In this document: piece by piece, positions 11,328 to 59,900 of the stretch | Layout of the letters: each line of letters begins with the position of its first letter | Numbering within the stretch: position 1 is the first letter of the stretch | Position numbers and translations under genes: made by a program | Source of the DNA: Liolophura sinensis | Taxonomy: Eukaryota > Mollusca > Polyplacophora > Chitonida > Chitonidae | Direction: 5' to 3' | Length of the DNA: 64,000 nucleotides | NCBI RefSeq assembly: GCF_032854445.1 | Contig: NC_088300.1 | Location: 2,110,001 to 2,174,000 of the forward strand | Notes under the pieces: generated by a model | Databases searched by the model: none | Seen by the model: only the letters and a program-made list of their open reading frames with translations | Told to the model about the DNA's origin: nothing

Positions 11328-12632
11328 CGCAGTGTATATGTTCCCACGTTAGGTAGGTGAGCAGTGTATATGTGCTCACGTTAGGTAGGTGAGCAGTGTA
11401 TACGTGCCCACGTTAGGTAGCAACACAGTGCATGTGTGCCCACATTAGGTAAGTGCGCAGTGTACATGTGCCCACATTAGGTAGGACAGCAGTGTATATG
11501 TGCCCGCAGTAGGGAGGACAGCAGTGTAAATGTGCCCACGTTAGGCAGGACAGCAGTGTATAGGTGCCCACGTTAGGTAGAACAGCAGTGTTTATGTCCC
11601 CACATTGGGTAGGACAGCAGTGTATATGTGCCAGTGTTAAGTTAGGACAGCAGTGTATATGTCCCCACATTAAGTAGGACAGCAGTGTATATGTCCCCTT
11701 ATTTGGCAGGACAGCAGTGTATATGTCCCCTTATTTGGCAGGACAGCAGTGTATATGTCCCCATGTTAGATAGGACAGCAGTGTATGTTTCCTCACGTTA
11801 AGTAGGACAGCAGTGTACACATCCCCTTATTAGGCAGGACAGCAGTGTATATTTCCCCATGTTAAATAGGATAGCAGTGTATATGTGCCCACGTTAGGTA
11901 AGACAGCAGTGTACATGTCCCCACATTAGGCAGGACAGCTGTGTATATGTGCCCACGTTAGGTAGGACAGCAGTGTATACATTGTATGTGCCCATGTTAG
12001 GTAGGACAACAGTGTATATGTCCCCACATTAGGCAGGACTGCAGTGTATATGTGCCCACGTTAGGTAGGACGGCAGTGTATATGTCCCCATGTTAGATAG
12101 GACAGCAGTGTATGTTTCCCCACGTTAAGTAGTACAGCAGTGTACACATCCCCTTATTAGGCAGGACAGCAGTGTATATTTCCCCATGTTAAATAGGATA
12201 GCAGTGTATATGTGCCAACGTTAGGTAAGACAGCAGTGTATATGTCCCCACATTAGGCAGGACAGCAGTATATATGTGCCCAGGTTAGGTAGGACAGCAG
12301 TGTATATGTGCCCACGTTAGGTAGGACAGCAGTGTATACATTGTATGTGCCCATGTTAGGTAGGACAACAATGTATTATGTCCCCACATTAAGCAGGACA
12401 GCAGTGTATATGTGCCCATGTTAGGTAGGACAGCAGTGTATATGTGCCCACGTTAGGTAGGACAGCAGTGTATACATTGTATGTGCCCATGTTAGGCAGG
12501 ACAGCAGTGTATATGTGCCCACGTTAGGTAAGACAGCAGTGTATACATTGTATGTGCCCATGTTAGGTAGGACAGCAGTGTATATGTGTCTACATTAGGT
12601 AGGATCGCAGTGTATATGTGACCACGTTAGGT
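11328..12632 (+). repeat. 32-bp minisatellite at exon 8/intron 8 (copy 1)
   Basis: Roughly 40 units of about 32 bp, core gcagtgtatatgtgcccacg followed by ttaggtagga. The last ~25 nt of exon 8 are the first unit. Some units carry a 10-bp extension (tatacattgt). Confidence 0.93.
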
Positions 12633-15795: not shown

Positions 15796-16124
15796 AATTT
15801 ACATTCATTGAGTCTACTAGCGCACAAGTACAACCTGATTCAGAACAGATGCATGTATTTGTATACATCATAGTGTTAATTTACATTCATTGAGTCTACT
15901 AGCGCACAAGTACAACCTGATTCAGAACAGATGCATGTATTTGTATACATCATAGTGTTAATTTACATTCATTGAGTCTACTAGCGCACAAGTACAACCT
16001 GATTCAGAACAGATGCATGTATTTGTATACAACATAGTGTTAATTTACATTCATTGAGTCGACTTACATACAGGTTCAGCCTGATCTAGAACAGATACAT
16101 GTATTTGTCTACAACATAGTGGTG
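15796..16124 (+). repeat. 82-bp tandem repeat in intron 10 (copy 1)
   Basis: Three near-identical 82-bp units starting at 15796, 15878 and 15960, followed by one diverged unit from 16042. Confidence 0.95.
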
Positions 16125-22659: not shown

Positions 22660-22895
22660 TTTATGAAGTTCATGTACCTGGTGAAGGTTGGTTTCCTCCT
22701 CTGGATACTATGGTTTCCTCCTTCAGGCTCTATGGTTTCCTCCTCCAGACACTATGGTCTCCTCCCGGAGACACTATAGCTTCCTCCTCCAGACACTATG
22801 GTTTCCTCCTCCAGACACTATGGTTTCCTCCATCTGACCACCGCCATGTATGTGAAAACTTCTTGAGCATGGTGTTAAATACCAATCAAATAAAT
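22660..22895 (+). mobile_element. SINE-like element with internal 22-bp repeat, intron 14 (copy 1)
   Basis: About seven units of roughly 22 bp (ctatggtttcctcctccaga) lie in front of a tail with cttgagcatggtgttaaata and ccaatcaaataaat. The body of the SINE seems to have expanded as a minisatellite. Confidence 0.6.
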
Positions 22896-24213
22896 GCGAT
22901 AAAATCCTTGTATATTAAGGTGCTTCCAAATACATGGACTGATGAATTCGCTCTAGTTCACTTGTATCTCTGCGTGTGTTACCACAGGCTGTTGGTTGTT
23001 TCAGGGAGCAGATATTGAGGGTACTATTAGGCATCACCTCGGGAGTTCTCAGGGAATGTCCCCCTAAAGACAAGAGTAAGACCCTGGGAGGACGACTTGC
23101 TCAGCCTATTTTTCAGGTTAGTTCGATATTTACCAAGAAAATAATATAATGTTCCTGGGGCTTGTTTTAAAGTATTTAATGATGTTCTGGGCATGGTTTG
23201 AAAACCTTCCCAAGTTCAGTAAACTCAACAAGTCAGTAGCTTTTTGTGTATTAAAGTCCAACATGGAGTGTTTTATGACAAAAAGTCAAACACTTCATAA
23301 AGATTATATCATGTTGCTCGAGAAAAAAACAGACAAAAAAAAAATGGATAAATTATTTTATTAATATTTTTTTAAAGCTGGTTGAGATTGGCACTACAAC
23401 TACTGTAGTTTTATCCTGTCATAGTGATATATTGGTGTGGTGATTACAGTCTAATGCCATGGACTGAAGACTGACCCATGGGACCTGTGTCACCTACAGT
23501 AAATACGGTTTTGCCTCGATGTCAGTCCAAGGAGTGACTGGTGTCGGCCGAGGAACCAAACAGTTGATGTACCCTAATCCCTTAACCTTTTCGCACACGA
23601 AAGAGCAACTTTCAGTGCAATTTATGCTCATTTATGGTTAGATTTTGGAGACAAAACTACATAGGGTGGACTGACCAATTTCAGGACCTCACAAAGAATA
23701 TAATTTTATCTTTCTGGATTGGATAATGCCTTCAGATTAAGCTTGAATGAACATGTTGCACACATGCGAAAAGGTTGAAGAATTTCGGTGGTTGTAATAA
23801 GATGTCCGCTGACCCGCTAGTTGGTTGACATCTGAGCACATCTAATTATCACGTACATCCATGGGTTATCCCCAGCTAAATGGTTTAACATGTACATATT
23901 GTTTTTCTATTTTGTGCGGGGGTGAGGAGCAGACCGGACCAAAGCAGGTACAAGAAATATTTGTTATACATTTGATGGGGTGCAGTTATTGATTCTGGGG
24001 TTAACTCTTGTTGACGAAGACAGAGGAGTACTCATGTTTTTCTAGAGGGAAAAACATACATTTGTACATTTAACCTTTTCTTGCAGACATTGATAGTAAC
24101 GTGGATTAAGGCCAACCTGAATGTGTTCATCAGCTGTAAGCTGTGGGACCTGTTCCTAGAGGTGCTGTCCTCTCTCACCCACTGGGAGGAGCTGATCAGA
24201 GAGTGGGCTGTGA

Positions 24214-26050
24214 GTAGAGCAGTGCTAAAGCTTCATCCCCCTGTACAAAAGTGTGCTGTCTGACACATCATTTAAAAGTAGAGCAGTGCTAAAGCTTCAT
24301 CCCCCTGTACAAAAGTGTGCTGTCTGACACATCATTTAAAAGTAGAGTAGTGCTAAAGCTTCATCCCCCTGTACAAAAGTGTGCTGTCTGACACATCATT
24401 TAAAAGAAGAGCAGTGCTAAAGCTTCATCCCCCTGTACAAAAGTGTGCTGTCTGACACATCATTTAAAAGTAGAGCAGTGCTAAAGCTTCATCCCCCTGT
24501 ACAAAAGTGTGCTGTCTGACACATTTAAAAGTAGAGCAGTGCTAAAGCTTCATCCCCCTGTACAAAAGTGTGCTGTCTGACAGATCATTTAAAGTAGAGC
24601 AGTGCTAAAGCTTCATCCCCCTGTACAAAAGTGTGCTGTCTGACACATCATTTAAAAGTAGAGCAGTGCTAAAACTTCATCCCCCTGTACAAAAGTATGC
24701 TGTCTGACACATCATTTAAAAGTAGAGCAGTGCTAAAGCTTCACCCCCCTGTACAAAAGTGTGCTGTCTGACACATCATTTAAAAGTAGAGCAGTGCTAA
24801 AGCTTCATCCCCCTGTACAAAAGTGTGCTGTCTGACAGATCATTTTAAGTAGAGCAGGGCTAAAGCTTCATCCCCCTGTACAAAAGTGTGCTGTCTGACA
24901 CATCATTTAAAAAGTAGAGCAGTGCTAAAGCTTTATACACCTGCACAAAAGTGTGCTGTCTGACACATCATTTAAAAGTAGAGCAGTGCTGAAGCTTCAT
25001 CCCCCTGTACAAAAGTGTGCTGTCTGACACATCATTTAAAAGTAGAGCAGTGCTAAAGCTTCATCCCCCTGTACAAAAGTGTGCTGTCTGACACATCATT
25101 TAAAGTAGAGCAGTGCTAAAACTTCATCCCCCTGTACAAAAGTGTGTTGTCTGACACATCATTTAAAAGTAGAGCAGTGCTAAAGCTTCATCCCCCTGTA
25201 CAAAGTGTGCTGTCTGACACATCATTTAAAAGTAGAGCAGTGCTAAAGCTTCATCCCCCTGTTACAAAAGTGTGCTGTCTGACACATCATTTAAAAGTAG
25301 AGCAGTGCTAAAGCTTCATCCCCCTGTACAAAAGTGTGCTGTCTGACACATCATTTAAAAGTAGAGCAGTGCTGAAGCTTCATCCCCCTGTACAAAAGTA
25401 TGCTGTCTGACACATCATTTAAAGTAGAGCAGTGCTAAAGCTTCATCCCCCTGTACAAAAGTGTGCTATCTAACACATCATTTAAAATTAGAGCAGTGCT
25501 AATGCTTTATCCCCCTGTACAAAAGTGTGCTGTCTGACACATCATTTAAAAGTAGAGCAGTGCTAAAGCTTCATCCCCCTGTACAAAAGTGTGCTGTCTG
25601 ACACATCATTTAAAAGTAGAGCAGTGCTAAAGCATCATCCCCCTGTACAAAAGTGTGCTGTCTGACACATCATTTAAAAGTAGAGCAGTGCTAAAGCTTC
25701 ATCCCTCTGTACAAAAGTGTGCTGTCTGACACATCATTTAAAAGTAGAGCAGTGCTAAAGCTTCATCCCCCTGTACAAAAGTATGCTGTCTGACACATCA
25801 TTTAAAAGTAGAGCAGTGCTGAAGCTTCATCCCCCTGTACAAAAGTGTGCTGTCTGATACATCATTTAAAAGTAGAGCAGTGCTAAAGCTTCATCCCCCT
25901 GTACTAAAGTATGCTGTCTGACACATCATTTAAAAGTAGAGCAGTTCTAAAGCTTCATCCCCTGTACAAAAGTGTGTTGTCTGACACATCATTTAAAAGT
26001 AGAGCAGTGCTAAAACTTCATCCCCCTGTTACAAAAGTGTGCTGTCTGAC
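24214..26050 (+). repeat. 64-bp minisatellite filling intron 16 (copy 1)
   Basis: About 29 units of 64 bp, each with gtagagcagtgctaaagctt and most with a HindIII site. The first unit begins 4 nt after the end of exon 16; the last ends about 30 nt before exon 17, so almost the whole intron (24210-26081) is repeat. Confidence 0.95.
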
Positions 26051-27880: not shown

Positions 27881-28080
27881 NNNNNNNNNNNNNNNNNNNN
27901 NNNNNNNNNNNNNNNNNNNNNNNNNNNNNNNNNNNNNNNNNNNNNNNNNNNNNNNNNNNNNNNNNNNNNNNNNNNNNNNNNNNNNNNNNNNNNNNNNNNN
28001 NNNNNNNNNNNNNNNNNNNNNNNNNNNNNNNNNNNNNNNNNNNNNNNNNNNNNNNNNNNNNNNNNNNNNNNNNNNNNNNN
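27881..28080. other. Assembly gap, 200 N
   Basis: Exactly 200 Ns, a round placeholder length. Left of it is RALGAPA intron 18 of copy 1, cut off in mid-intron. Right of it is a 36-bp satellite. The two flanks are not necessarily adjacent in the chromosome. Confidence 0.99.
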
Positions 28081-38900: not shown

Positions 38901-41900
38901 TAGGGTACGGAAAAAAGAAATGCCCTGAAAACCCCCAGAGTAGGACCCTGTTTTAGAGGGTCAGTAAGGTTACACCTAATGAAAATATATTTTTTTGGCC
39001 TTATATAGTAATGACGATGTCTGACTCGCATATCAGTCCTTTTTTGTGTGGCTTGTTTTTGGACGTTCTTATAATAAAGGGTAATTACATGTATATGACC
39101 TTGTGATCTCAGCCATAAGATCAGAAAATCCTCTTTAAACCAGGCAGTTTTGTGTTAGTTTTTGTGTGCTTTTCACTGATGTAATGCAGAGTTGCACACT
39201 TCATTTTGGTGAAGTGGTGAATGACACAGTATCTGTTATACATATATGTACAAACATTAAGATTCAGTTTTCTTTCTGAATTGTTGATCTTCTTTTAATA
39301 CCACCTTGTCTGTTTTTTTTCCACCTTTAGAAAATTTTGTTAGTTCTGCCAGAGCTAATTCATAAAAGATGGATGTTTCACAGCATTGGTAAGTACATGT
39401 GGCCATGTGTGCCTGATTTTTTTTTTTTTGTGTACTCTGTTGTAATACTATGACCAGAGGAGTTTGGTTAATTTGGTTCACAGAAAGTCAAATGATACAC
39501 GTAACATGAACCAGTGCTTCTAGCCTCATGTATTTAATTGTTATGAAAAGAATGGACTGGTCATGTCTCAGAGAGGTTCATTTAATAATGTTTAAGGGAA
39601 ATATAAACATTTCTACAAATTGATGTACATATTTTTATCAATTTAAAACTGGTCATTATTAGGCTTATAGTAACTGACATAAAATGTTGACCTCAAAAGT
39701 GCATGTGAAGAGGCAATGGAATGTGATAAATTCTCACTTTTGGTGCTACAACTGACATGCGTCAAGTAGGATTTCATCTTACCTTCAAACAAACCTCAAA
39801 ACACCTTTCTAACATCTAAAGAACTCTCAGAATCGGGCAGAATGAGTGACTTAGTCATGGATGAAGTAGCATACAGTCTGACAACTCTTCTGCAAAGTTA
39901 TTTGTGTGTGGTGCCAAGGTAAGCTGTGGCTGTTTGCATTGTATTGACAGGGGCAGTTTTAATGATATTACCGTGAGAAGAATCCAAAAATGTCACTTTG
40001 AGTAATCTGTTTTTTTCTGGAATTTTATTTATTTAAATCTTTTCCTGAATTTATTTATTTAAATCTGAGTTTGTATCTACCTGTCATGATTGTAATAATT
40101 TTCCTGATTTCCCGTGAAAATATTTTTAGGTCGGATTTTAAAGAAGTTGCTGCATCCTGGAAACAGTCTGAAGGTAAATTAAGTTCATGGTTGTGACAAA
40201 AACTTTAGTGTAGAAATGGCTTCTCTTCACAATTTGAAAATGCCGAAGGGGTCAGTTAAATAACTTCGTGTTTCTGGAAAATAATTTTTTCTGACAGATT
40301 TGTCAGACTGATTGATGTGAAGATCTTTTTTAAAGTGCTTATGTCTTGCCGGGAATGTATTGCTTTTATATGTCATTGTTATTTGAAAATATTGGGTTTC
40401 ACAGCAAATATTCCTTGGTCAAGGTCTCAGTTCAAAGAAGCCTGTGAACTTTGTCAGGATGACAATATCAGAATGTGAAACAGATGTGTACAGGTGTATT
40501 TTCATTTATGCCATTCATTAATTTATTGAATGTCTGTTTGGTTTGCTTAGCTTCGTCGAGAGGGTGTGAGACTGTTTATGATCTGGTATCAGATCCTTCA
40601 GGAGAACGCCTCAGACGACTGTCACCAAATGTTCTTCAAACTGGTACCTGGCCTGGGAGACACCGAAACCTTCAAGGCCTTTGATGCTCGCTTTGGCAAT
40701 TACGTGGCTGACAGTATGTACTTACAATTCTCATCAGTTAAAGTGTCTGCTTTGCCCATAACTTGGCTGACAGTATGTTTTTACAGTTCTCATGAATAAA
40801 AGTGTCTGCTTTACAGTTCTCATGAATAAAAGTGTCTGCTTTACGGTTCTCATGGATAAAAATGTCTGCTTTACAGTTCTCATTAATAAAAGTGTCTGCT
40901 TTGCCCATCATGTCGCTGACAGTATGTCCTTACGGTTCTCATTAGTAACAGTGTCTGCTTTGCCCATGACGTGGCTGACAGTGTGTCCTTATGGTTCTCA
41001 TTAGTAACAGTGTCTGTATTGCCCATGACATGGCTGACAGTGTGTCCTTATGGTTCTCATTAGTAACAGTGTCTGTATTGCCCATAGCGTTGCTGACAGT
41101 GTGTCCTTACGGTTCTCATTAATAACAGTGTCTGTATTGCCCATAACGTTGCTGACAGTATGTCCTTACGGTTCTCATTAGTAACAGTGTCTGCTTTGCC
41201 CATGACGTGGCTGACAGTATGTCCTTATGGTTCTCATTAGTAACAGTGTCTGCTTTGCCCATAATGTGGCTGACAGTATGTCCTTATGGTTCTCATTAGT
41301 AACAGTGTCTGTATTGCCCATGACGTGGCTGACAGTGTGTCCTTACGGTTCTCATTAGTAACAGTGTCTGTATTGCCCATAGCGTTGCTGACAGTGTGTC
41401 CTTACGGTTCTCATTAATAACAGTGTCTGTATTGCCCATAACGTTGCTGACAGTGTGTCCTTACGGTTCTCATTAATAACAGTGTCTGTATTGCCCATAG
41501 CGTTGCTGACAGTGTGTCCTTACGGTTCTCATTAGTAACAGTGTCTGTATTGCCCATGACGTGGCTGACAGTGTGTCCTTATTGTTCTCATTAATAACAG
41601 TGTCTGTTTTGCCCATGACGTGGCTGACAGTATGTCCTTACGGTTCTCATTAGTAACAGTGTCTGCTTTGCCCATGACATGGCTGACAGTGTGTCCTTAC
41701 GGTTCTGATTAATAACAGTGTCTGCTTTGCCCATAAAGTGGCTGACAGTGTGTCCTTATGGTTCTCATTAGTAACAGTGTCTGCTTTGCCCATAATGTGG
41801 CTGACAGTGTGTCCTTACAGTTCTCATTAGTAACAGTGTCTGCTTTGCCCATAACGTTGCTGACAGTGTGTCCTTATGGTTCTGATTAATAACAGTGTCT

Positions 41901-44900
41901 GCTTTGCCCATAACGTGGCTGACGGTATATCGTTACAGTTTTCATTTGTAACAGTGTCTGTTTTGCCCATAACGTGGCTGACAGTACTTTATAAAGCTGA
42001 CTGAAGTTATACAATAAAATATGCTTATGTGTAAAATTACCTACATGTCTCGGCTACTCACCACTTTGATCGTCTGTTTTAATCAAATACCTACCGGTTT
42101 CCTGTTTCCTCCTTTTTCTGGTTGCCTCCACCCATAAACTATAGAACAATCAAATAAGTCAAATAGTCTTGATCAAGGCTTTATCCTACAGTCAGATAAA
42201 TAAATAAATACATGTAAATACTGTAATTCTTCCACCTGTTTGCATGTTTGCAAGGTTTACTCAAGCATATTCTAAAGCACTGAAATTGGTCAATCCAACC
42301 AGTGTAGTTTTGTCTCCAATATCTATTGTAAGTGTCTATAAATTCCACTGGAAGTTGCTCTCTCTTATGCGAAAAGGTTTAGGAATTAGGATAAATGAAC
42401 AAAGCACAAATTTAATAAATAGAAATGTAAATACAAATGACATTAACAAATTGAATCTATGCACACAATGTTTTTTTTTTTTCAAAAATAGATCCACACT
42501 GCAACCAGTTGTCAGAGAAAATGTCAGATCTACTGACTGTAACATTTATTTTGCCTATGTTATGTCAACGCTGGTGGTGAGTTTGTCAGATCTGCTGACT
42601 TACATTTATTTTGCCTAGGTTATGGGGGCATCATTGCTGCTGGTGAAATTGCTCCAATTTATCTGGTCACTGGAGAAAAACAGCCAGAGAACCTGACAAA
42701 GTATTTTCTGGAAGCCCTGTTAACCTTCATGGTGTCTGAGGTAAGTATGAGAAAACCTTGTCATTCTTTATGCATCCAATATTGTTTCCTTCAAAGACAA
42801 TAATCTGAGGCATTGGATATCCATTATACATTATTGCATTATTATCCATTTCAAGCTTTATGTGCCTTGTGTGCAGATGGACAAAGAGTTTGAAAATTTA
42901 ACTGCTTTTATTTTTCAGTAGAATGATTTGAACAGTTTCATAAATCTGAGCTCAAGGGAGATAAGTACATGTGTTAATGGCTGTCCTTGACTTATTTCCC
43001 CTACTCTGTATGTGTATTCATTTAACAGGTCACCAAAGTTGAGTGGATGAACAAGGAGATGCGGGAGACCAGCTTCGTGTTTCTGTTTGACAAGTTTAAA
43101 GAATCCTACCTAAAATGTTTACTGCCTGACTTCAGAAAGGACCGCAGTGTATATGTTCCCACGTTAGGTAGGTGAGCAGTGTATATGTGCTCACGTTAGG
43201 TAGGTGAGCAGTGTATACGTGCCCACGTTAGGTAGCAACACAGTGCATGTGTGCCCACATTAGGTAGGTGCGCAGTGTACATGTGCCCACATTAGGTAGG
43301 ACAGCAGTGTATATGTGCCCGCATTAGGGAGGACAGCAGTGTAAATGTGCCCACGTTAGGCAGGACAGCAGTGTATAGGTGCCCACGTTAGGTAGAACAG
43401 CAGTGTTTATGTCCCCACATTAGGTAGGACAGCAGTGTATATGTGCCAGTGTTAAGTTAGGACAGCAGTGTATATGTCCCCACATTAAGTAGGACAGCAG
43501 TGTATATGTCCCCTTATTTGGCAGGACAGCCGTGTATATGTCCCCGTGTTAGATAGGACAGCAGTGTATGTTTCCCCACGTTAAGTAGGACAGCAGTGTA
43601 CACATCCCCTTATTAGGCAGGACAGCAGTGTATATTTCCCCATGTTAAATAGGATAGCAGTGTATATGTGCCCACGTTAGGTAAGACAGCAGTGTACATG
43701 TCCCCACATTAGGCAGGACAGCCGTGTATATGTGCCCACGTTAGGTAGGACAGCAGTGTATACATTGTATGTGCCCATGTTAGGTAGGACAACAGTGTAT
43801 ATGTCCCCACATTAGGCAGGACTGCAGTGTATATGTGCCCACGTTAGGTAGGACGGCAGTGTATATGTCCCCATGTTAGATAGGACAGCAGTGTATGTTT
43901 CCCCACGTTAAGTAGTACAGCAGTGTACACATCCCCTTATTAGGCAGGACAGCAGTGTATATTTCCCCATGTTAAATAGGATAGCAGTGTATATGTGCCC
44001 ACGTTAGGTAAGACAGCAGTGTATATGTCCCCACATTAGGCAGGACAGCAGTATATATGTGCCCAGGTTAGGTAGGACAGCAGTGTATATGTGCCCACGT
44101 TAGGTAGGACAGCAGTGTATACATTGTATGTGCCCATGTTAGGTAGGACAACAATGTATATGTCCCCACATTAAGCAGGACAGCAGTGTATATGTGCCCA
44201 TGTTAGGTAGGACAGCAGTGTATATGTGCCCACGTTAGGTAGGACAGCAGTGTATACATTGTATGTGCCCATGTTAGGCAGGACAGCAGTGTATATGTGC
44301 CCACGTTAGGTAAGACAGCAGTGTATACATTGTATGTGCCCATGTTAGGTAGGACAACAGTGTATATGTGTCTACATTAGGTAGGATCGCAGTGTATATG
44401 TGACCACGTTAGGTTATGTCTCTATGTTCAGCTCATAACGACAGAGAATCAGTGAGGTTCAGAAGGTGGAGCATAGCCATAAAATAACGATTTAGACAGA
44501 AGTTATGGGGAAGATATAAAGTTTGTCATGGTGTAGTAGATTCATTCATAACAACTAATTCTAAATTCTTTGACAGTGTGGCATGAAAAAAATTTAAAAC
44601 TGTTGATATTAGGTGTATCGTGCTAATGAGATTCATGTTGTAGTAACAACTAAGACATATTTGGCGTCTGTGATAGTCATGTGTTGTTGTTGTTGAACTT
44701 CTTTTTGGTTCTGTTTTGTAAATAAACCTGTGCCTTGTTTGTGTGATAACAGAAATCCCAATATGGAGAAAGTTGGAAGCTGTTCACACAGAGGATGTTC
44801 CCAGCTATGTGGCAGCCTGTCAAGATTCCTTTATTAAATGGCTGGCCAACTTTGCCATCACTTCAAGGAGACCAGAAGTGCCTGTAGGACCGTAAGTTTA

Positions 44901-47900
44901 CCTCAGTGAATACTACTTGTACAGATATCATTTTATGCAGTCCATTTCAATGTTTCTAAAGTTTTGAAATTAAATACAGAACTAAATACATCCAAGTTTT
45001 TAGACCATGTGCCTCTTTCTATATATATTCTAGTATTTATTCCTTGCTTACGTCATTACACTTGAGCTTGCAATCTGAAAGTAACAGTCTGACCTGTGCA
45101 CACATTCATGTGCTTAAAGACTACAGTAAATCATCTGAAACTGATCTAAGGGATTGTTTGGAGACAAATAAAATATTACTTTCTGTGCTACCCTACTGAG
45201 GGCATTGTTTATTTTGTTTTATTAATTGCTTGAACTTAAGAAGAAGACATCACAGTTTTCTTGAATATATGTCAAGAGCAATAGATAAAATTATTATTCA
45301 TTGTGGATGTTGATGTGTTTTGTGAATGTTTGCCAGGAGAAGTTCCAATTTTGACAAGAACCGGTAGATAATTTTTTTTTTTTTTTTTAGATTTTGCATC
45401 CTAGATAGAACAGTGCTTCAATATAGAGCCTAAATAAAGATTAAGAAAAAAACCTAGACTCTGTCAAGCTTAATCTGCATCATTCGAATTATAAAAGTAG
45501 ATATGCTGAGACATGGAACTACATACATGTATAGCAAGTACTACATGGTATGTTGGCATCAAGAAATATGGCATACTAACAAGGTCTTGGTTGGTCGTGA
45601 GGTTTAATTAGACATGCTCAAAACACTAACAAATCCTCAGCTTTTTCATCAGCTAATCCCTGTAATTAACTTATTACCTGGCTCATGGTATCCCTATTCC
45701 CATACCTGTGGCTTGGAGGCCCTTGTTGGGTTCTCATAGCAGATTACTTTACTATGAGGTTATGTGCTGGAGTCTCACTGGTTCATCAGGGTCCATAAGT
45801 CAGGTGATTTGTCAGGTGTACTCTGGTTTGCCCAGTGACTCTGGGCATGAAAGTTCAGTATTCTTGAGTGTAGTGTTAAAACACTAATCAAATGTCACAT
45901 GTCCTATTATGTGGAAATATTGAATCCGTGTAGATTTAAGAACATACATGTACATTTAATATTATTTTTGGGGGTTTATTATAGAGGGTATTAACTATGG
46001 TGATGCTTACAAGCCTATCCTGCTGGCCATGGTTTCACAAAACTTTCAAGTTCTTTTGCTTAATAATACCATACTTATGATGGGTTTGACTGAAGTTTTA
46101 TCAAGAATCACTCCATGTGGGACTGAAGCAATAAAACACTGGCTGGCAATTTACTGAACTTAAGGGGTTTTGTGAAACCTGTCCCTGGTTTGTGTGAATC
46201 TGTTAGGGTTGGAGGAAACTGTCTCTTATTAAAGCATAAATGTTGAAAACCAGTCGGCTAAATCAAGAGAGATAGGACATTTCTTCCTTGCATGCACTTA
46301 ATACTTTGACATCATTATTGCCTTGTCTTTACGACTTACAGAGTACTATATGTACAACATTAGATGGTGTTAAATTTTATCAGAAAATTCACAATAATTA
46401 TGCCTTCATATTTGATGTCATAAGTGGCAAGGATAACTCATACATTGTACATCCTTCATCTTAAACTGTTTTATTGAATTTAAACCTAAATCCATATACG
46501 TTTTTACTGAGGTGTGTCTATTTGTTACACTGTGATTAGATCTTTACTTAGTGTTTGTGGGTGTAGGGTTTCTTAATAATCCCCATAACTACAAAAGAGG
46601 CAGGAGCAGGGGCATATACATGTCCTAGTATACTGTTGTGTGAACACCTCGCGCAGCACATAGTTGTACAGAGGGTTCCGTTAACTAATCCTGGGCATCT
46701 TGTAATCATCATTCACTATGCAAGCATTGCATGTATTTTGTAACCCTCTGCCATGCATGTCTGTAGCCTTCTCTCCTAACCCTGCTCTGTCTACAGCGGA
46801 CTTTCATGTTCATTCCTTGCTGATCATCCCAGTGCCAACAGGTCAGATGAAGATGGCAAGGAGAGCTCAGATGAAAAGGTAGACAACTCTGAGCAGCAAT
46901 CTGGTAGTCAGAGCAGCACACTGACCAGTGGTTCTCAGGCTGTGGAGAAGGACTCCGCTGACTCGAGTCTCTGCAGCGATGAACACAGCCAGTCTGAGTA
47001 CGAGATTGTCCGTGGAGTTCTCTACTCTACAAGGGAGAATGTGAACATTGTACAGGAAATCTTCAGACAGGTCAGCGTTCATATCATCAAGCAAAATCAA
47101 ACCAGTGGTTATCAGAAGTTTTAGTATTCTCTATGATTTGTAGTAGTGCTGTTCTTTTTGTGTGGCTGATTGTCATGGTCGATCCTGTGGGTATAAATCT
47201 TGATGGAGGAGTTATCATGAAGTGACCCACAGTGGATGTCATGCATGGGTCAGAAATGACCACAAATTGTCCCTGGCCAATAGGAAAAAGAGGGCTCCAC
47301 AAGCTGCTTTTATTGCCTGTTGGATATTTGATCATCCATGTTGAAATTAGCACAAGTAAAATGTGAAGTGGATGAGTGAAATAAGTGTTTAACTCTAAAT
47401 TTAAAATGTTTGCACTAGCATAAAAGTCTTTGTCACAGTTTCTGTATTAAGTATACTTTAACCCCTCCCCCCCCCGCCCATGAAAAATATGAAAATAATG
47501 TAATGATTTTAAGGGAACTACAGGTAACAATAAATTTATAAGATACAATTTCAAGTCAAGCAGATAATGATCTAAATACCTGCAGTACAAAGCATTTTAA
47601 TTTACATTCATTGAGTCTACTAGCGCACAAGTACAACCTGATTCAGAACAGATGCATGTATTTGTATACAACATAGTGTTAATTTACATTCATTGAGTCT
47701 ACTAGCGCACAAGTACAACCTGATTCAGAACAGATGCATGTATTTGTATACAACATAGTGTTAATTTACATTCATTGAGTCTACTAGCGCACAAGTACAA
47801 CCTGATTCAGAACAGATGCATGTATTTGTATACAACATAGTGTTAATTTACATTCATTGAGTCTACTAGCGCACAAGTACAACCTGATTCAGAACAGATG

Positions 47901-50900
47901 CATGTATTTGTATACAACATAGTGTTAATTTACATTCATTGAGTCTACTAGCGCACAAGTACAACCTGATTCAGAACAGATGCATGTATTTGTATACAAC
48001 ATAGTGTTAATTTACATTCATTGAGTCTACTAGCGCACAAGTACAACCTGATTCAGAACAGATGCATGTATTTGTATACAACATAGTGTTAATTTACATT
48101 CATTGAGTCGACTTACATACAGGTTCAGCCTGATCTAGAACAGATACATGTATTTGTCTACAACATAGTGGTGTATACATAATGTAAACATCTTTATCAC
48201 CTACATTTTCTTGTTAGTATGTTGTGTATGACAGATAGCTTACAGTACACCACCACTAGACACTACATGTGTATAGGTCATGTAGACTGCAGACCAACAC
48301 ACAAATACAAGATGTGACAGTTCCTGGCAAATTTACCTTGGTGACAGTATAACCTTTGAATGTGGATAAGTAACCAGCTAACTTTGAGAAATGATTTTCC
48401 ACTTAAATTGTATTAGTTTTCGTTATTTTGACTGTTGGATAAGAATGATGTTATTAATGTGGACAGCGTTTTGTAACTCTTCTGTGTGCATAGATTTAAA
48501 TAGACTTCAGTTAAAGACAGTTTGACAAAACACGCTCTTTCTGGCCTACCAGCAAAGGTAGGTCCAAAAATGCCAGCACTATCAGTACTGAGTGGCAATA
48601 GGTAAAAAAAAAAATATATATATATGTATACTTCTTATGTTTACGTGTTTTTGTTGGCAAGGTATTTAAAACTATTGAGTATTTCAATAAGTTTTTTGGA
48701 AAGTGATTTTTGAGAGCTACAAAAATATATAAACTGGTCCTTCAGGTAAATGAAGGCAAACATGATCACACTGTTCTCTGATCCATCACAACCTAATCTG
48801 GCCAGTGCTGGTTCAGCGTTACTGGTCCAACCAGAGCAGTGTTGATTTCGGGCCCAGTCATGTTGTTACAGTTTCTTTTGGGTATAAAAACGCTCAAAAA
48901 GAAAGACTAGAAATATGCAAAGAGAGGGCTTGTGTGGACTAACAATTTCTATGCTTCCAGGCACTCCTGTTCTCCTTTGAGCATGCAGCAGCCATGAAGA
49001 GAGTTATCAGTGTATACAAAGACTGGTTTCAGGTGGGTTCACTCTAATTTATGTCAGTACTTGCTCTTTGTTTATTTGACAGTTTTGTAGTGGAATGCAG
49101 TTTTCTACAATGATTGATTCTCTTATAAAAGGGAAACTCTGTCAGTAGTTTCTCTTGACACACTTATGACTGCACAAAGCATGTGTTAACAAGCAAAACT
49201 TTTAACAACCCAAAACAAGGATAATCCAGAACCAAGGCCATTTGTTTTCAAAGGACAAGACAGCACCTGGCTAAAACATATTTCAATTGAAAGCAGGATA
49301 CTAAAGGTTTCTAAAAAGTATCATACTTTTTATTTTAATGAGATTTCACCGGATAACATGTAGAACATCTGGAGAATTTATCCATTCAAACATATTGCTC
49401 TCAAATTGTGCAGCCTAAGCTGTGACATAGCCTTTGCTCTTTCACTCCATGAAGGGACATGATAACACAAAACTAGAGCATGAGACATTTTATTATTGTT
49501 TACGACGATTTAGTTATGTGTAGCCAAAGCGCCATTTCACAAAGTATTGTGGGACAGATCTGCATCATTTAAGGACCACCACAGATGTAAAATCGTCTTT
49601 ACGAATCGTCTTTGATTTACAAGCTGTGTAATGTTCAACGATGGTACGTGTATCACAAATTATGTCAGACAGAAGCATGCATCTCTCCCAAATACATTTT
49701 TTGTCTTTCATTTTAGTGTTTAGTCAGCAGTTTGTAAATAACAAATATCAAAGTCAGTGCAAAATTCATTAGGGATGCCGAAGGTTTATTGGAATGGGAA
49801 AACGGCATCTCTCCGAACAACGCTTAAAATTAATTAAAATTCTTAGGATGCATTTTTTTTCTCTGAATTTATTACAGTGAAGAATTTAAAGTTTGTTTCG
49901 TCTTTCTTGCTTATAAAGGATGTTTTTTTTTCTGTTTTCTTTTATAACATACAGTAAAATTATTGAAACGCCATGTTCAAGCCGAGGTGCTTTCGCTGAC
50001 GATGACTAGGTCAGCGCTGCTTTTATCTTAGAAGCCATGGCTACAAATTTGAAGCATAAAAGCCAGTGACCGTCGAATGCCTTGATTAGCCTCCATGGTA
50101 TTTAGATTTATTGACTATGAATCTAGTTTTGTAATTTTGTAAATATTGAATGGGGGTCAAAATCACCAGCACAACTCTTCCGGAGGACATGACCTGAACC
50201 AGGAATACGGACATGGCCGTGCATCTGCAGCCAGGCTACAGAAACAGGGTCACTGGAGTTCCTTGTAAATGATATACTAGGCCTACTGTGTCAACAATTC
50301 AAACAGTGGAAGACATATTCTTCCAGTTTGTCTAATTTCCAAGAACGCTACATATGTCACTCGAGCCTTCATTGCCGAAGTCCACAACTTTTATCTGTTG
50401 TAGGCTACTGCTTAGTCTGTTATGTAGAAAGTACTTTTGACGTTAGAAAGCTAGAGTAAATGTTACGCCCCCTTGCCCTTGATAAAGGAGACATGCTGAA
50501 GCTGTGACAAGACGAAGTTTCACTAAGCCTTTACTGGGTTGAAAAAAAATCTAAAAAAATAGTTAATGCCGGTTTAAGATACATTGAATGGTAGTCTGTC
50601 AGTGGAAATAAACATCAGTCAGGTGCTGTCCTTCACTTTAAAATCCCATAAAGTTTAAAAAGTATCAATGTAAAACAATAGTTGTTTGTCGTTCAAGAAG
50701 TAATTTTATGGTACATTTTGTACCTAACGTAAGCATATCTTGTTTCAAATCATCCGTAATAATACACTAGTAATGGTGATACATACAGAATACTCATGTA
50801 ATCATTGGTACGGAAGTAAACTATTTATAGCAATGTAAGGTTGTTTAATCTTAATTATAGACTAAGGCAATATGTGGTTTTATTGCAGCAGTTTATACAA

Positions 50901-53900
50901 TGTATGTTATTATTTTCTTAGTCTAATAGTATTGTTTTATTTGTGATACTTGTTGTTTGTTACTAACAATGTTTTCCTGCATTTTAGATCCTTAAAGATT
51001 GACCTGTATTGTTTTGCATTTGATGTAGGCTTACATGCTATATGTAAGTCATTAGGATGGATAACATTTTGGCTGTACTTTACCAATATGAACAGACCCT
51101 ATGTATATTTTGTTGTATACTGTGGTCATCTGTGTTTATGAACATGACATGATTGAAAACTATTGGTACTTGCCATCTTCCTGAGAAATGAACAAAAACT
51201 GAAAAAAAGAGAGTTGTTTTGCTCGAAGTCAGAGTAAGTCATAATCAGTTGTATTCCTAAATATGGTGATCTAGGTCCAAGCTGAAGACGATGGCAATCT
51301 TCTCTGACAAAAGGGCATATGAATTGTTTAGTTACTTATGTCTGACAATATGGTAATATCATCGGTGTCCCTTCAGGCCAGGATATTGTTGATTTCTACA
51401 CAGAAGACTATGTTGTGAACCCAGAGAATGGGTCACAACTCAAGTATGTAGAGTGATGGGAAATGTTCAGAACAAGTCACATTAATTTTCTGGATGACAT
51501 TACGATGAGAAAAAATACAGAAATTTTGAACATAGTTTTGCTGAACAGAAAACCTCTGCCTTGGAATATGGCAGGCAAGAAGCTTGAGAGTTAATGCTGA
51601 AATGTTATACCAAGCCGTCTTAAGTAAATTAGAAATCATATACTGTAGATAGCAAGAGATATAATAGGACGGAATAAAGCCCTCAGCACACAGCTTGGAC
51701 CTTAATACTGTCTATAGGAAGGAGTCCCATCCTGGCAGCCATGATGTTGTTGTTGTTGCTTGCTTTGCTGTAGTTGTATGTGGAGTATGTACTTTTGCAG
51801 CATGTAGAGCAGCGGCCCGTGTTTATGCAGGAACCAAGTGTGGATGTGACTTCGGGTCTGGAACAGAGAGGAACACCTGAATTCCACCACAGTAGTCTCT
51901 CTGACATCATTGAGGAGAGTTCATCTGGAGTAAGACACTCTCATTACCTCCCTTGATTTGAGGTTGTTGCCATGGTAATGTCACTGGCATTACCATAGCA
52001 ACACCATCTATCTATCTATCGCTCTCTCATTTTTATACCACTTCAGTGTCTTCTCTCTGTCTCTTATTTTTACCCAATTATGTAACATTTTATTTGACTA
52101 TCATCTTTTTTTTTTTTTTTTTTTTTGCATTTGTGCAGGTACATTGTATTTGGACATAAGCTTAACCACAATATCTGGTTGCTTAACCACATTATCTGGT
52201 TTTCCTTAACTTGGATCCTCTGGATGATTTATTTCTTGAAATTTCTGTCTGGTTGCGTCCGTGTTGTTTGAAAATGACATGAATCCCATACCTTTCCCAA
52301 ATCTGAAAGATGTAGATGTGACAGTTCATCAGTCATGACATTGCAAATACATGTTACAGGTAACAGAATTTGTGCTCTGGAAGCTACATTATACTGTGAG
52401 ACCAACAACCCCTGATTGTTTGTTTTTGAATGTCTTTTTGTCGGTCTTTTGATTTTGTTTTTTAAGTTCTGCTGTTAGTATTTAAGTGTGATTAGTTTTT
52501 GCTCTACTTGTAAATAAAAAATGATGAAATAAGACAGTTATCACATCATCTTATCATGGTAGCTAATTTTGAAGTAAAAATTTTCACAGCAACTGCTGTG
52601 TTTATATCTGTATGAAGAATTAGTCAATTAAAAGTAAAAGTTCTGTTCACATGTTGGGGTCATAAGAGTTTCATAGTTTTCACAATATCAGTGACTGTGA
52701 AGTGAAGTGATTTGAATGGTTTGTTTTGTGCACAGATCTGCATTAGTATTGAAAGTTTAATGTTTTAATTTATTTTGCACTTTCAATTTTTTTTGATTGA
52801 TTTTTGTGTTGTTGATTATTTTTCTGCTCTAGTGTCTGTTCTCATTGTTGATCACTGACACTGTCATTGTCATAGTATTTGAAGCTAAGCACAGTATAAA
52901 CTATTTGTATGACAAATTGTACGGACAAATCAGACTGTCCTCTTACCTTGACTGTGATGACAGTGGACTATCCTGAATTCCTCAAACTTTTCCCATGTAA
53001 AAAGGCAACATTGAATTCAACCTCACGCACCTGACTAGTTCAGTTTTGGAAACAGGACTAGATGTTTTGATTGACCAACTTCAAGGTTTCACAAAAAGTG
53101 CAGTTTTATCAGTCTAGATAACAGGGCTCTCAAAAAGTCCCAACATAAGTACCAGGTAAACATGGGAAAGGGTGGAGGTAGAGGAGTAGTGAGTGAATAT
53201 TGATCACTTTTATGAAGTGATCAAACACAACACATTGTAAAATGACCAATAAAATTCTTGTCTGATTGTATTTGTTTTTTCAGTTTCATTAAATTGCAGA
53301 ACATGAAGGTTTTCTACATAAAAGTAAACTGTTTTTAATCTCAGTTATGTTGCACTAAAAATTTACAAATCTTGCAATTTCCTGCTGCTTTGCAGCTCTT
53401 CCATGATATAATCAAACTACATTGTATGTATGAAAAAGTCAGTGATAAGTTCTACTTGTCCACTGTACTGTAGGATTCGTCTCCCTTGCCCTCCACACCT
53501 CGCCAGATGGTTTCCTTAGAGTTACCAGAGAGACAGAGAACAGTGAGGAATGCCTCTTACCTGGGTGCGATCCAGGACCTGGCAGACAGCGGGGATGAGA
53601 GTCACATGGACGTCAAGGCAGGGCTTCAGCGCGTCTGTCAGGTGTTCATAACGAATGCCGCTAATGTGTTCCTGCAGGAGGTCCATGATGAGAACCTTTT
53701 AAATGAACAGGTGAGAAGATGTCGAAAGGGTGAATTGTTTTTCAGTTATAAATTTACTTGTAGTCGTTTTAAGAGTGACTGAGCTGAATTTTCTTGTTAA
53801 TGTTATTAAGAACAAAATAGATAAATTATCTTAGCATGTCATCTTTGTGATAAAAAAAATGACAATCAAGATTCAGGAAATCGATTTAGTAAATATTTTA

Positions 53901-56900
53901 TAAGATCTGTAACAGTGATATGTATATCTGGTATGCATTTTCTTGACGGAATACATATAAAAGCATTTCGTTTTCTATGTTTGCAAAGATGGTATTATGT
54001 TCCTCTGAGGTTCTCAAGTAATAACTTGTGAAAAGTCTTCTTTGTTACCATTCATCCGAAATTTTTTAAGGACACATCAACAAAGGCAATCAGACAGTAT
54101 CTGACATGATAGCACATCTACTAGAAGATATTCAGTATTGATTCGTTTATGTTTGCTTGCAGGTGGATTTGTGTAAGAGAGTCCTCAATATCTACAGATA
54201 TATCGTCATGAACATACCCATACAGCAGCAGACATGGTGAGTCAGGCTCAGTTTTCTTCCCCGCTAAATCCAAGAGATCATAATTCCATCTATATTCCCA
54301 TGCTGTTCGTGTTCATTTATGTGTATGCTTGAGGGTGGGGAAATCTTGTACCAGTGCATTTGGACTGCATGGCATTGAATAAGAACTCTCTACAAACTGT
54401 AGTCTGCTTTCTTTACCCAGATACATGTTGCATGTTGATGGGTCTTTCAGTAGTTAGCCATGTAAAGCATTTCAGCAAATTCCTTTCTGGTGTCAAAAGA
54501 CTTCTATACATGTAGTGTTTATCCTTTGGAATTTAACAGGCAAAAATTTCCGGATGCCAACTGTTCAAAGTGTGACTAAAGCACTGACTGTCTATGACTT
54601 AGAACCTTGGCCAGTGAGGTGGTATGTTTGAATACAGCTCACGCTATTGCATTTGTGTCAGGAGATGTATGAAGTTCATGTACCTGGTGAAGGTTGGTTT
54701 CCTCCTCTGGATACTATGGTTTCCGCCTTCAGGCACTATAGCTTCCTCCTCCAGACACTATGGTTTCCTCCCGCAGACACTATAGCTTCCTCCTCCAGAC
54801 ACTATGGTTTCCTCCTCCAGACACTATGGTTTCCTCCATCTGACCACCGCCATGTATGTGAAAACTTCTTGAGCATGGTGTTAAATACCAATCAAATAAA
54901 TGCGATAAAATCCTTGTATATTAAGGTGCTTCCAAATACATGGACTGATGAATTCGCTCTAGTTCACTTGTATCTCTGGGTGTGTTACCACAGGCTGTTG
55001 GTTGTTTCAGGGAGCAGATATTGAGGGTACTATTAGGCATCACCTCGGGAGTTCTCAGGGAATGTCCCCCTAAAGACAAGAGTAAGACCCTGGGAGGACG
55101 ACTTGCTCAGCCTATTTTCCAGGTTAGTTCGATATTTACCAAGAAAATAATATAATGTTCCTGGGGCTTGTTTTAAAGTATTTAATGATGTTCTGGGCAT
55201 GGTTTGAAAACCTTCCCAAGTTCAGTAAATTCAACAAGTCAGTAGCTTTTTGTGTATTAAAGTCCAACATGGAGTGTTTTATGACAAAATTAAAGTCAAA
55301 CACTTCATAAAGATTATATCATGTTGCTCGAGAAAAAACAGACAAAAAAAAAATGAATAAATTATTTTATTAATATTTTTTTAAAGCTGGTTGAGATTGG
55401 CACTACAACTACTGTAGTTTTATCCTGTCATAGTGATATATTGGTGTGGTGATTACAGTCTAATGCCATGGACTGAAGACTGACCCGTGGGACCTGTGTC
55501 ACCTACAGTAAATACGGTTTTGCCTCGATGTCAGTCCAAGGTGTGACTGGTGTCGGCCGAGGAACCAAACAGTTGATGTACCCTAATCCCTTAACCTTTT
55601 CGCACACGAAAGAGCAACTTTCAGTGCAATTTATGCTCATTTATGGTTAGATTTTGGAGACAAAACTACATAGGGTGGACTGGCCAATTTCAGGACCTCA
55701 CAAAGAATATAATTTTATCTTTCTGGATTGGATAATGCCTTCAGATTAAGCTTGAATGAACATGTTGCACACATGCGAAAAGGTTGAAGAATTTCGGTGG
55801 TTGTAATAAGATGTCCGCTGACCCGCTAGTTGGTTGACATCTGAGCACATCTAATTATCACTTACATCCATGGGTTATCCCCAGCTAAATGGTTTAACAT
55901 GTACATATTGTTTTTCTATTTTGTGCGGTGGTGAGGAGCAGACCGGACCAAAGCAGGTACAAGAAATATTTGTTAGACATTTGATGGGGTGCAGTTATTG
56001 ATTCCGGGGTTAACTCTTGTTGACGATGACAGAGGAGTACTCATGTTTTTCTAGAGGGAAAAACATACATTTGTACATTTAACCTTTTCTTGCAGACATT
56101 GATAGTAACGTGGATTAAGGCCAACCTGAATGTGTTCATCAGCTGTAAGCTGTGGGACCTGTTCCTAGAGGTGCTGTCCTCTCTCACCCACTGGGAGGAG
56201 CTTATCAGAGAGTGGGCTGTGAGTAGAGCAGTGATAAAGCTTCATCCCCCTGTACAAAAGTGTGCTGTCTGACACATCATTTAAAAGTAGAGCAGTGCTA
56301 AAGCTTCATCCCCCTGTACAAAAGTGTGCTGTCTGACACATCATTTAAAAGTAGAGCAGTGCTAAAACTTCATCCCCCTGTACAAAAGTGTGCTGTCTGA
56401 CACATCATTTAAAAGTAGAGCAGTGCTAAAGCTTCATCCCCCTGTACAAAAGTGTGCTGTCTGACACATCATTTAAAAGTAGAGCAGTGCTAAAGCTTTA
56501 TACCCCTGTACAAAAGTGTGCTGTCTGACACATCATTTAAAAGTAGAGCAGTGCTAAAGCTTCATCCCCCTGTACAAAAGTGTGCTGTCTGACACATCAT
56601 TTAAAAGTAGAGCAGTGCTAAAGCTTCATCCCCCTGTACAAAAGTATGCTGTCTGACACATCATTTAAAAGTAGAGCAGTGCTAAAGCTTCATCCCCCTG
56701 TACAAAAGTGTGCTGTCTGACACATCATTTAAAAGTAGAGCAGTGCTAAAGCTTTATACCCCTGTACAAAAGTGTGCTGTCTGACACATCATGTAAAAGT
56801 AGACCAGTTCTAAAGCTTCATCCCCCTGTACAAAAGTGTGCTATCTGACACATCATTTAAAAGTAGAGCAGTGCTAAAGCTTCATCCCCCTGTACAAAAG

Positions 56901-59900
56901 TATGTTGTCTGACACATCATTTAAAAGTAGAGCAGTGCTAAAGCTTCATCCCTGTGTACAAAAGTGTGCTGTCTGACACATCATTTAAAAGTAGAGCAGT
57001 GCTAAAGCTTCATCCCCCTGTACAAAAGTGTGCTGTCTGACACATCATTTAAAAGTAGAGCAGTGCTAAAGCTTCATCCCCCTGTACAAAAGTGTGCTGT
57101 CTGACACATCATTTAAAAGTAGAGCAGTGCTAAAGCTTCATCCCCCTGTACAAAAGTGTGCTGTCTGACACATCATTAAAAAAGTAGAGCAGTGCTGAAG
57201 CTTCATCCCCCTGTACAAAAGTGTGCTGTCTGACACGTCATTTAAAAGTAGAGCAGTGCTAAAGCTTCATCCCCTGTACAAAAGTATGCTGTCTGATACA
57301 TCATTACATCATTTAAAAGTAGAGCAGTGCTAAAGCTTCATCCCCCTGTACAAAGGTATGCTGTCTGACACATCATTTAAAAGTAGAGCAGTTCTAAAGC
57401 TTCATCCCCCTGTACAAAAGTATGCTGTCTGACACATCATTTAAAAGTAGAACAGTGCTAAAGCTTCATCCCCCTGTACAAAAGTGTGCTGTCTGACACA
57501 TCATTTAAAAGTAGAGCAGTGCTAAAGCTTCATCCCCCTGTACAAAAGTATGCTGTCTGACACATCATTTAAAAGTAGAGCAGTGCTAAAGCTTCATCCC
57601 CTGTACAAAAGTGTGCTGTCTGACACATCATTTAAAAGTTGAGCAGTGCTAAAGCTTCATCCCCCTGTACAAAAGTGTGCTGTCTGACACATCATTTAAA
57701 AGTAGAGCAGTGCTAAAGCTTCATCCCCCTGTTACAAAAGTGTGCTGTCTGACTGTGCTGAGATTTGTTGTTGATGTTGTACAGAAAACAATGGAGACGT
57801 TGACACGAGTGCTGGCTAAACATGTGTATAACCTGGACCTGTTAGACCTGCCCTTACAGAGGCTGAGTGAGCAGAAGGAAAAAAGACGGCGTGGCAGGAG
57901 TCAAGGTATTCATACAGACGGGTTGTAAGCAGCCTATTGCGTGAGCACGTAATCTCAGGCACACTTAAGTGGCTTAAGTCAGCTTAAGATTTTTTTCAGG
58001 ATAATGTCATTCTTCTGAATTAATCTCAAGGCAAATGGTCTTGCAGATTGCATCCAGAGATGGTATCTTTCATAGTAATTGCATATCAAATGGTCCTATT
58101 AAGTGGCAGATTTGCATCAGAATCTGTTCAGATGTTGTCTTTCTGTCATAATAATCATATGTCAAATGACTTAGCTCCTGTACATGTAAAAGATGGCACT
58201 GTCAGGAAATGCTACTCCCAAAACCCAGATCAGAGTCATATCCACTAGATTAAAGACATAGACCCATATCCCAGACAGCTGTCTGTTTCCCTCCCTCAGC
58301 ATTATCTGTAGCAGGACTAAGGCATATGCACTAAAGGGAGAAAATTTGTATTGGCTTGATTCATTCATCGGATAATGCAGGAAACAAGAATCATAATTCA
58401 GTTATTTTCATTTTTTACAACTTCTTTCATCCCAGTTTGGCACACATTTATCACCTTTCCTGTACGAGGGAATGAGTACAATAGAATGGTTAATGACATG
58501 GCCTGTGTTTGATGGCAAAATCAGTCTACCGAAAACTTCATCCTTGTGTTTACCATCTTGTAGGCCCACCAAAAGTTCAGAATAAGGATAAGACGTTCTC
58601 GCGAGCTATTCTGTCACCTGCAAAGGCACCCTCTGCGACTGCAGCAAACGCCTCACCAGCCGGGGTTGATGTGCCATTTGAGCGAGGGAAGTCAAGATCA
58701 GAAGGTAAGTAAGATGGAAATGAATTATGGCATAACAGGACTTTGTGAGTAAGTTTATCTGGCGTCACACATTTAGTGCATGTATGCATTGTGTCAAAGC
58801 GAGAGTTGACTTCTTGTGACCTTATTTGGTTCCCCAGTTTATGTCTATAATTTATATCCCCAAAACTGTAAAACCATGTTAACCAAACAGTTTTATCTGT
58901 ATCCTTGCCCTTAATGTCCTGAATTTCTGAGCAGTGTAGTTTAAATTGATCATTTCACTGCTAACATTTAGAATGGTTATGTGGCCATGTTGCATTTTTC
59001 GTATGTTCATATAGTCATGCTAGGTTTTATTGGTTATTTCATTGCTCTCACCTAAACCAAACATTGAGAAGCCATCTTCATACCTAATTGACTAGATTCA
59101 TATAGCGTTTGTGTGATTTCTTCTCTGTGTTCATTCTTGCTTTATATCGCATTGTGCTTATCTCAGCTTTTTGTGTTAACATATACTTTTACATTCTGCT
59201 TAGTTACCTTTATACTTCCTGTATGTAAGTTTTCGTTTGTCTTTTCTTCATAAATGAATATTATTCCTTGTATATTTGTGTATTGATGGATTTTCATAAC
59301 CACTACACATGTATTTATCGTAAAGACCCGAAGTAGCCTGTTTATTGCAAAGTATAGCCCGACTAGAACCCCATGAAGCTCTGGCCAATATAAAAGAAAG
59401 TCAGAACATCTAGATATCACTGCTGACATCTTCCAGTTAATGGAGTACTAAATATTGCTGAAGTTTCACCAAGCGTTAACAACAGCCATTGCTAATGAAA
59501 TCACCTGGTTTTTGCTTTAGCTTCTCTGTTGAGAATGTAATTTGAAATGTACACATCAACAGAATCTAACATTTACCTCTCTGAAAAGGTGATACGGATC
59601 AAAACAATGAAAGAGTCCTTAAAATTATCTTTCATCATCACAAATGATACAAATCTTGACTTTCTGGAACCTTTCTGTAAGATTTGCCCATCTTCTATTG
59701 GTGTCAGGTAGAGATGTTATTGACAAAAAGTTTGATGAAATGTTCAGTGAGAACAACTGAGCAAATACCAAAATATCAAAAGTACATACCTTCACCCCAG
59801 AGGAAGGTTAGTGTCCTGAATACTGTAAATGCAGCTTGATTGCACCTGTGAAATAAAACGAGGCTTTCTTGTCACCATTTACAGAGAGGTACGTCTCAAA

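Follow-up and report, generated by a model that had tools for sequence, protein, structure and literature searches.

Minisatellites spanning splice donors in a chiton RalGAP-alpha gene and the placement of such arrays in myosin introns of the same genome

Donor-side minisatellites in the RalGAP-alpha gene

A stretch of 64,000 nucleotides from the chiton Liolophura sinensis (contig NC_088300.1, positions 2,110,001 to 2,174,000 of the forward strand; hereafter "the window") contains a gene for the alpha subunit of the Ral GTPase-activating protein (RalGAP-alpha), in which introns 6, 8 and 16 hold tandem arrays with units of 59, 32 and 64 bp, respectively, at or near their 5' splice sites (donors). 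We consider it likely that locally born minisatellites fill the introns of this genome and that those spanning a donor are tolerated, the arrays of introns 6 and 8 being "mirage" repeats of the kind described in amphioxus and that of intron 16 an ordinary intronic minisatellite. The repeat unit crosses the exon-intron boundary, the defining feature of a mirage, in introns 6 and 8 and does not do so in intron 16. The gene was identified by its translated exons, which match human RalGAP-alpha-2 (PDB 9qwp) at 7e-56 and 7.2e-63.

Arrays were called with Tandem Repeats Finder (TRF), in which the 59-bp stretch appears as several overlapping rows, and all three arrays that the first-pass annotation had distinguished by unit length were recovered. 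The 59-bp array (40690–41985, on the forward strand, as are all arrays and donors in the window) opens with the last 24 bp of exon 6 followed by the donor, and the 32-bp array (43138–44414) opens with 30 bp of exon 8 followed by TTAG|GTAGGT. Because the two arrays begin inside exons (at −24 and −30 from the first intron base, respectively), their units include, in varying form, the end of the exon, the donor and the start of the intron. Counting a register copy wherever at least 15 of 20 bases matched the donor context, we found 20 copies of exon end plus donor in the 59-bp array and 21 donor copies in the 32-bp array; when copies were located by their flanks alone, GT was kept in 19 of 19 and 22 of 34, respectively. 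The 64-bp array (56222–57753) starts at intron base +4, at an offset of +3 from the intron's first base. It stops 31 bp short of the last intron base and spans 1532 of the 1566 bases of intron 16, all but 34 bp, with no register copies of the donor under the same 15-of-20 threshold. The earlier view that all three arrays sit at donors thus held as an overlap for the 59- and 32-bp arrays, but only as proximity for the 64-bp array.

The exon-8 donor (TAG|GTAGGT, 43168–43176) and the exon-16 donor (GCT|GTGAGT, 56219–56227) were placed by spliced alignment to human RalGAP-alpha-2 and scored at the 55th and 5th percentiles, respectively. Spliced alignment failed at exon 6 and at exons 9–10, where reading phase and sequence inspection were used. 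At exon 6, a GC site and a false exon within the array were chosen in place of the donor, because the protein stretch there is poorly conserved. Judged by reading phase alone, the exon-6 donor (ACA|GTATGT, 40714–40722) probably lies at 40714, where A|GT would join the phase-1 acceptor at 42618; it is weak: against 176 training donors, its score reaches only the 1st percentile.

The three arrays appear to be unrelated, as the first-pass annotation had proposed. Their units showed no clear kinship in local alignment (scores of 12, 9 and 9, against shuffle means of 6.8, 7.1 and 6.5 and shuffle maxima of 15, 16 and 12), the closest pair being the 59- and 32-bp units. A search of the genome (609 Mb in 632 contigs) with the three array stretches, which skips very common words and scores the best candidates, matched nothing beyond the two copies of each array's own locus, described below; the occurrence of a unit at many loci, as expected of a dispersed satellite or an introner-like element, was not observed for any of the three.

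Two further arrays of the gene lie away from donors, again in line with the earlier description: an 82-bp array of 7 units (47597–48170), which starts 526 bp past the first intron base, and a 22-bp array (54695–54837), both mid-intron by TRF. We estimated how often such a pattern arises by chance by letting each array be born at a random site in an intron collapsed to one repeat unit. The per-array chance of a first unit overlapping the donor or starting within 4 bp of it was 0.084, 0.090 and 0.42 for the 59-, 32- and 64-bp arrays, respectively, and 0.058 and 0.039 for the other two; the high value for the 64-bp array reflects the shortness of intron 16, which would measure only 98 bp if the array were removed. 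The 64-bp array lies near a donor because the intron that holds it is otherwise tiny. Under this model, the probability of at least 3 of 5 arrays behaving in this way was 0.011, rising to 0.017 when two more 2-copy TRF rows of the same stretch (40013 and 52160) were included. Downstream in the gene, four larger arrays were inspected (72905, 75507, 77798 and 81197, with units of 31, 27, 134 and 25 bp, respectively), none of which begins at a donor tied to an exon; a donor-like GT occurs at 75509, where the 27-bp array opens, and the arrays at 77798 and 81197 lie past the last exon matched to the human protein (~75 kb) and may be outside the gene. With these four added at a hand-set chance of 0.06 each, the probability became 0.053 (0.044 without the two 2-copy rows), and 0.079 after four small rows that TRF also listed there (65119, 73639, 77262 and 83715) were added at a hand-set 0.03. 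All of these values are post hoc, the gene having been picked for its pattern.

The array-bearing introns might themselves be new, produced by duplication of an exonic segment containing AGGT (the Rogers model), and the intron-8 unit does carry the exon end together with AGGT. In excerpts of a report on intron gain, two fission yeast genes have tandem 24-bp AGGT arrays with introns across them (PMC4974935). In introns 8 and 6, however, 338 and 633 bp, respectively, of intron with no called array lie between the array and the acceptor, and the units contain intron sequence, so the introns probably predate the arrays; in neither case is the intron itself a duplicated exonic segment. We regard this origin as very improbable.

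Placement of arrays in a sample of myosin introns

The first-pass annotation had suggested a shared mechanism for the three arrays, such as slippage or break repair seeded at exon-intron junctions, and had called for a genome-wide comparison of array positions with donors and acceptors. This comparison was made in a sample of the genome, namely 18 myosin gene regions (261 kb; M followed by a number below) chosen blind to repeats. A Pfam myosin-head search of the genome gave 81 exon matches, 76 of which fall in the 18 regions taken; the remainder comprised a gene at C1 88.56–88.59 Mb (2 matches), a lone match at C8 33.92 Mb and peripheral exons belonging to two of the sampled genes. Introns were modelled by our own spliced-alignment script, with solved myosins and the genes' own predictions as references. 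Requiring support from at least 5 of the 10 best alignments gave 186 introns, and 34 clusters with split support were dropped; one of these, with a donor at M9 15307 (6 of 8 alignments, 61-bp array), was restored by hand after inspection, which gave 187 introns and raised the donor count, in favour of a donor excess.

At the main threshold (TRF period of at least 15 and score of at least 100), the 187 introns contained 68 arrays, and minisatellites made up 21.0% of intron bases. The donor lay inside an array in 10 of the 187 introns and the acceptor in 2, whereas uniform placement predicts 5.9 each. The corresponding observed-to-expected ratio (O/E) for donors was 1.70 (95% confidence interval 0.82–3.13, P = 0.059); without the restored M9 intron, there were 9 donors and 2 acceptors against 5.8 expected (P = 0.11). 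Across the four thresholds used, the donor O/E was 1.65, 1.70, 1.76 and 2.30 (P = 0.061, 0.059, 0.061 and 0.017, respectively), so that donor placement was indistinguishable from uniform at three of the four. The suggestion that introns grow by tandem copying of a splice site finds support in the ten donors inside arrays in this repeat-blind sample.

The profile of array coverage showed no local peak at the donors of the 187 introns. Arrays covered 4.1% of the last 20 exon bases, 5.4% of intron positions 0–19, 10% of positions 80–99 and ~15% beyond position 280. Among introns 650 bp or longer (90 in all), coverage rose smoothly from 6.7% at −10 and +5 to 17.8% at +100 and 22.2% at +300. A test independent of TRF edges gave a similar picture: a 24-mer centred on the site had a near copy at 8 of 186 donors and 2 of 186 acceptors, compared with 17 of 170 positions at +100 and 18 of 85 at +300 from donors, the far offsets retaining longer introns only. 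The coverage profile is what uniform birth combined with protected exons predicts, and a modest donor excess, up to about 3-fold, is compatible with the data.

These results bear on the idea that a property of the donor seeds minisatellites at junctions, through AGGTRAGT microhomology, U1-bound nascent RNA, an R-loop, a break or a stalled fork. In its favour are the three arrays in RalGAP-alpha, the donor O/E of 1.65–2.30 with its low P value at the strictest threshold, and the larger number of donors than acceptors in arrays. Region M9 (gene-strand coordinates) is a second gene region with three donor-spanning arrays, at donors 1275, 3785 and 15307, among nine. Against it stand the absence of a donor peak in either coverage or repeated 24-mers and the smooth climb of coverage away from the donor in long introns. 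We consider seeding at junctions unlikely; it is unsupported by these data, and the background test indicates that no special seeding at splice sites is needed. A mechanism seeded at junctions found no support at the main threshold; the strictest threshold leaves a hint of excess.

Several points count against the favoured reading of a uniform background. The donor O/E exceeded 1 at all four thresholds, the strictest value of 2.30 having an interval of 0.99–4.52. Admitting arrays that start up to +4, as the first-pass annotation did, gave P = 0.101, 0.087, 0.091 and 0.027 at the four thresholds. The O/E would understate the mutational excess if some donor duplications are lost to selection. 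Finally, the sample represents one gene family, and its introns come from our own alignment script.

The asymmetry between 10 donors and 2 acceptors had a two-sided p of 0.039 (0.023, 0.065 and 0.039 at the other thresholds). It is suggestive and fragile, and we treat it as only suggestive because the relaxed set of 223 introns, obtained by accepting introns with as few as 3 of the 10 best alignments behind them, gave weaker 24-mer counts (10 donors and 5 acceptors) and because amphioxus mirages also occur at acceptors.

Some of the dropped clusters also have splice sites in arrays. In M15 (~9459–9718), both sites lie inside a 153-bp array, and this cluster would add one to each side. The donor was in an array in at least 3 of 6 alignments for M8 (~79–490), 2 of 6 for M13 (~14436), 1 of 6 for M18 (~14441) and 1 of 9 for M18 (~12209), and the acceptor of a cluster in M17 in 1 of 5. 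The array at M9 2899 (18 bp × 2.2), one of ten initial donor arrays, had no register copies and fell under the main threshold.

Other arrangements were noted in the same regions. The rarer acceptor-side case is represented by a 95-bp array of 3.1 copies at M17 1255–1550, which repeats the acceptor and the exon start, TTTTCAG|CCAACCCC, and a 32-bp array of 43 copies at M13 2145–3505 runs across an acceptor (last intron base 3496). At M13 18816–19143, a 158-bp duplication of 2.0 copies has a unit resembling myosin-neck coding sequence, with a putative IQ-like motif. In M6 (4072–4157, 4513–4627, 6201–6299 and 7294–7386), the references pick different exons for one stretch of muscle myosin, as if these were mutually exclusive exons.

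State of the donor copies

Register copies of the donor were present in 12 of the 14 arrays examined at donors, those of introns 6 and 8 included. In the twelve arrays, 117 copies were located by flanks alone, of which 103 keep GT and 45 keep all nine donor bases; the mismatch rate was 10.6% for the core of the donor, compared with 12.8% for its flanks, as raw proportions. The donor copies are thus, overall, neither clearly degraded nor specially kept. Among the register copies, 53 of 114 scored at least as high as the real donor, including all 7 in the array at M12 15063. Three arrays depart from this pattern: copies in the 32-bp array are poorer (mean score of 3.7 vs 8.9), 12 of 34 lacking GT, and poorer copies also occur at M9 3785 (6.8 vs 12.8) and M15 5552 (5.7 vs 11.3, from two copies only).

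The unit length was a multiple of 3 in only one of the 12 arrays with register copies (66), and reading on past the donor reached a stop within 1–96 nt in all 11 arrays with an assigned phase. Since unit lengths are rarely multiples of 3 and stops come early, the protein would mostly need the first donor; for the 59-bp array and for M6 and M7, however, the stop falls past the first donor copy, and there only the frame shift argues for this. The same figures bear on the proposal that selection favours donor arrays because internal donors provide alternative or regulated splicing, for example as an isoform or nonsense-mediated decay switch tuned by a variable number of tandem repeats. Many internal donors are intact and strong, and in human IFI6 two downstream repeat units are reported to be used as donors (PMC4526556). 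The lengths of the units, the early stops and the nearly equal preservation of core and flanks speak against such selection, which we consider quite improbable.

Overlapping contigs and the second copies of the arrays

The window contains a 200-N scaffold gap (27881–28080) by which, according to the overlap pairing, both ends of a 31.6-kb overlap are bounded: position 27880 is matched by 59566, and 28081 by −3739, which lies upstream of the window. Within the window, 1–27880 overlaps 31828–59566. The overlap runs from the contig end to the next contig start, exactly at the gap, as in a haplotypic duplication. Since two unmerged alleles would be expected to give an overlap bounded by the gap at both ends, it is best read as such, and the arrays at 8.9–26 kb would be second alleles of those at 40.7–57.8 kb, the copies in the right contig whose positions were given above. 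Unmerged alleles would also cause double annotation of the gene.

The other copies, all called by TRF, lie at 8876–10171 (59-bp array, equal in length), 11323–12632 (32-bp array, longer by 33 bp), 15794–16121 (82-bp array, 4 units, shorter by 246 bp or 3 units), 22689–22831 (22-bp array, equal in length) and 24213–26050 (64-bp array, longer by 306 bp). Length thus differs in three of the five arrays, while substitutions are few (between 2 and 40 in each aligned array). All five arrays are real, but each is present twice in the window, which leaves five independent arrays rather than ten. Collapse or mis-expansion of repeats during assembly has in its favour the unresolved overlap at the scaffold gap; the presence of all five arrays in both overlapping contigs, with differing lengths and few substitutions, makes an artefact the least probable of the explanations considered.

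Relation to known systems and implications

The closest known kind for the arrays of introns 6 and 8 is the mirage minisatellite of amphioxus, of which they look like a new case. In excerpts of the amphioxus reports, such repeats lie across exon-intron boundaries of Adh3, troponin C, the globins BflGb6 and BflGb9, and PGBD5; one globin gene shows length differences between haplotypes, and splicing is reportedly undisturbed (PMC3087553, PMC3902484). The likeness lies in a unit that crosses the exon-intron boundary. According to the same excerpts, acceptor-side boundaries are repeated in amphioxus too, and the test of position against a background is an addition of the present study. Among solved structures, the predicted muscle myosin of this genome scores highest against those of squid (1183 bits) and scallop (1081), ahead of human cardiac myosin (999), in keeping with a mollusc or another lophotrochozoan rather than a lancelet. 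Between the two copies, the 32-bp array differs in length by 33 bp and the 59-bp array does not; this would be variation between haplotypes if the copies are alleles. Among the papers listed in literature searches, none named mirages outside amphioxus in its title or abstract opening.

Human IFI6 (6-16) was reportedly shown by Turri et al. in 1995 to contain a minisatellite supplying multiple splice donors. It resembles the present arrays in having minisatellite units with splice donors and differs in that downstream units are used in real transcripts, whereas the donors here are predicted. Intron gain by tandem duplication, with cases in potato, ATP2A1 and fission yeast in the excerpted report (PMC4974935), shares tandem copies with splice signals, AGGT in the classic model. 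There, however, the duplicate becomes a new intron; in the present gene, growth seems to take place at the 5' end of an intron that already existed.

Under the favoured explanation of locally arising minisatellites, the introns of this genome would be full of such repeats, and arrays that chance to span a 5' splice site would be retained with the exon unharmed. The spliceosome would take the first, exon-proximal and first-transcribed, of the many donor copies, and donor-spanning arrays would be kept because that copy is used and the exon stays intact. The arrays would then lengthen or shorten by approximately whole units through slippage or unequal exchange. That the first donor copy is the used one, why it wins and the nature of the mutational step are our inferences from sequence.

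A more tentative extension is that donor-spanning arrays are tolerated and acceptor-spanning ones purged, since splice sites may be committed in the order of transcription, so that the first copy wins: the first donor copy would be the true site and the first acceptor copy a decoy. The two acceptor arrays in the sample, the relaxed counts of 10 and 5 and the acceptor mirages of amphioxus all speak against it, and we consider it possible but doubtful.

The arrays of introns 6 and 8 would extend the mirage phenomenon of amphioxus to a genome outside the lancelets, one that is probably lophotrochozoan. Where a fifth of intron bases are minisatellite, some arrays will cover a donor by chance. If the first of several identical donors is used, such introns are natural experiments on splice-site choice, and if the donor rate of the myosin sample holds, multi-donor introns would occur naturally in this genome by the thousand, in many cases with competing donors of identical sequence, and would read out the first-copy rule in vivo. 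Should the donor-acceptor asymmetry persist in a larger sample, the order in which splice sites are committed would become a prediction that can be counted genome-wide.

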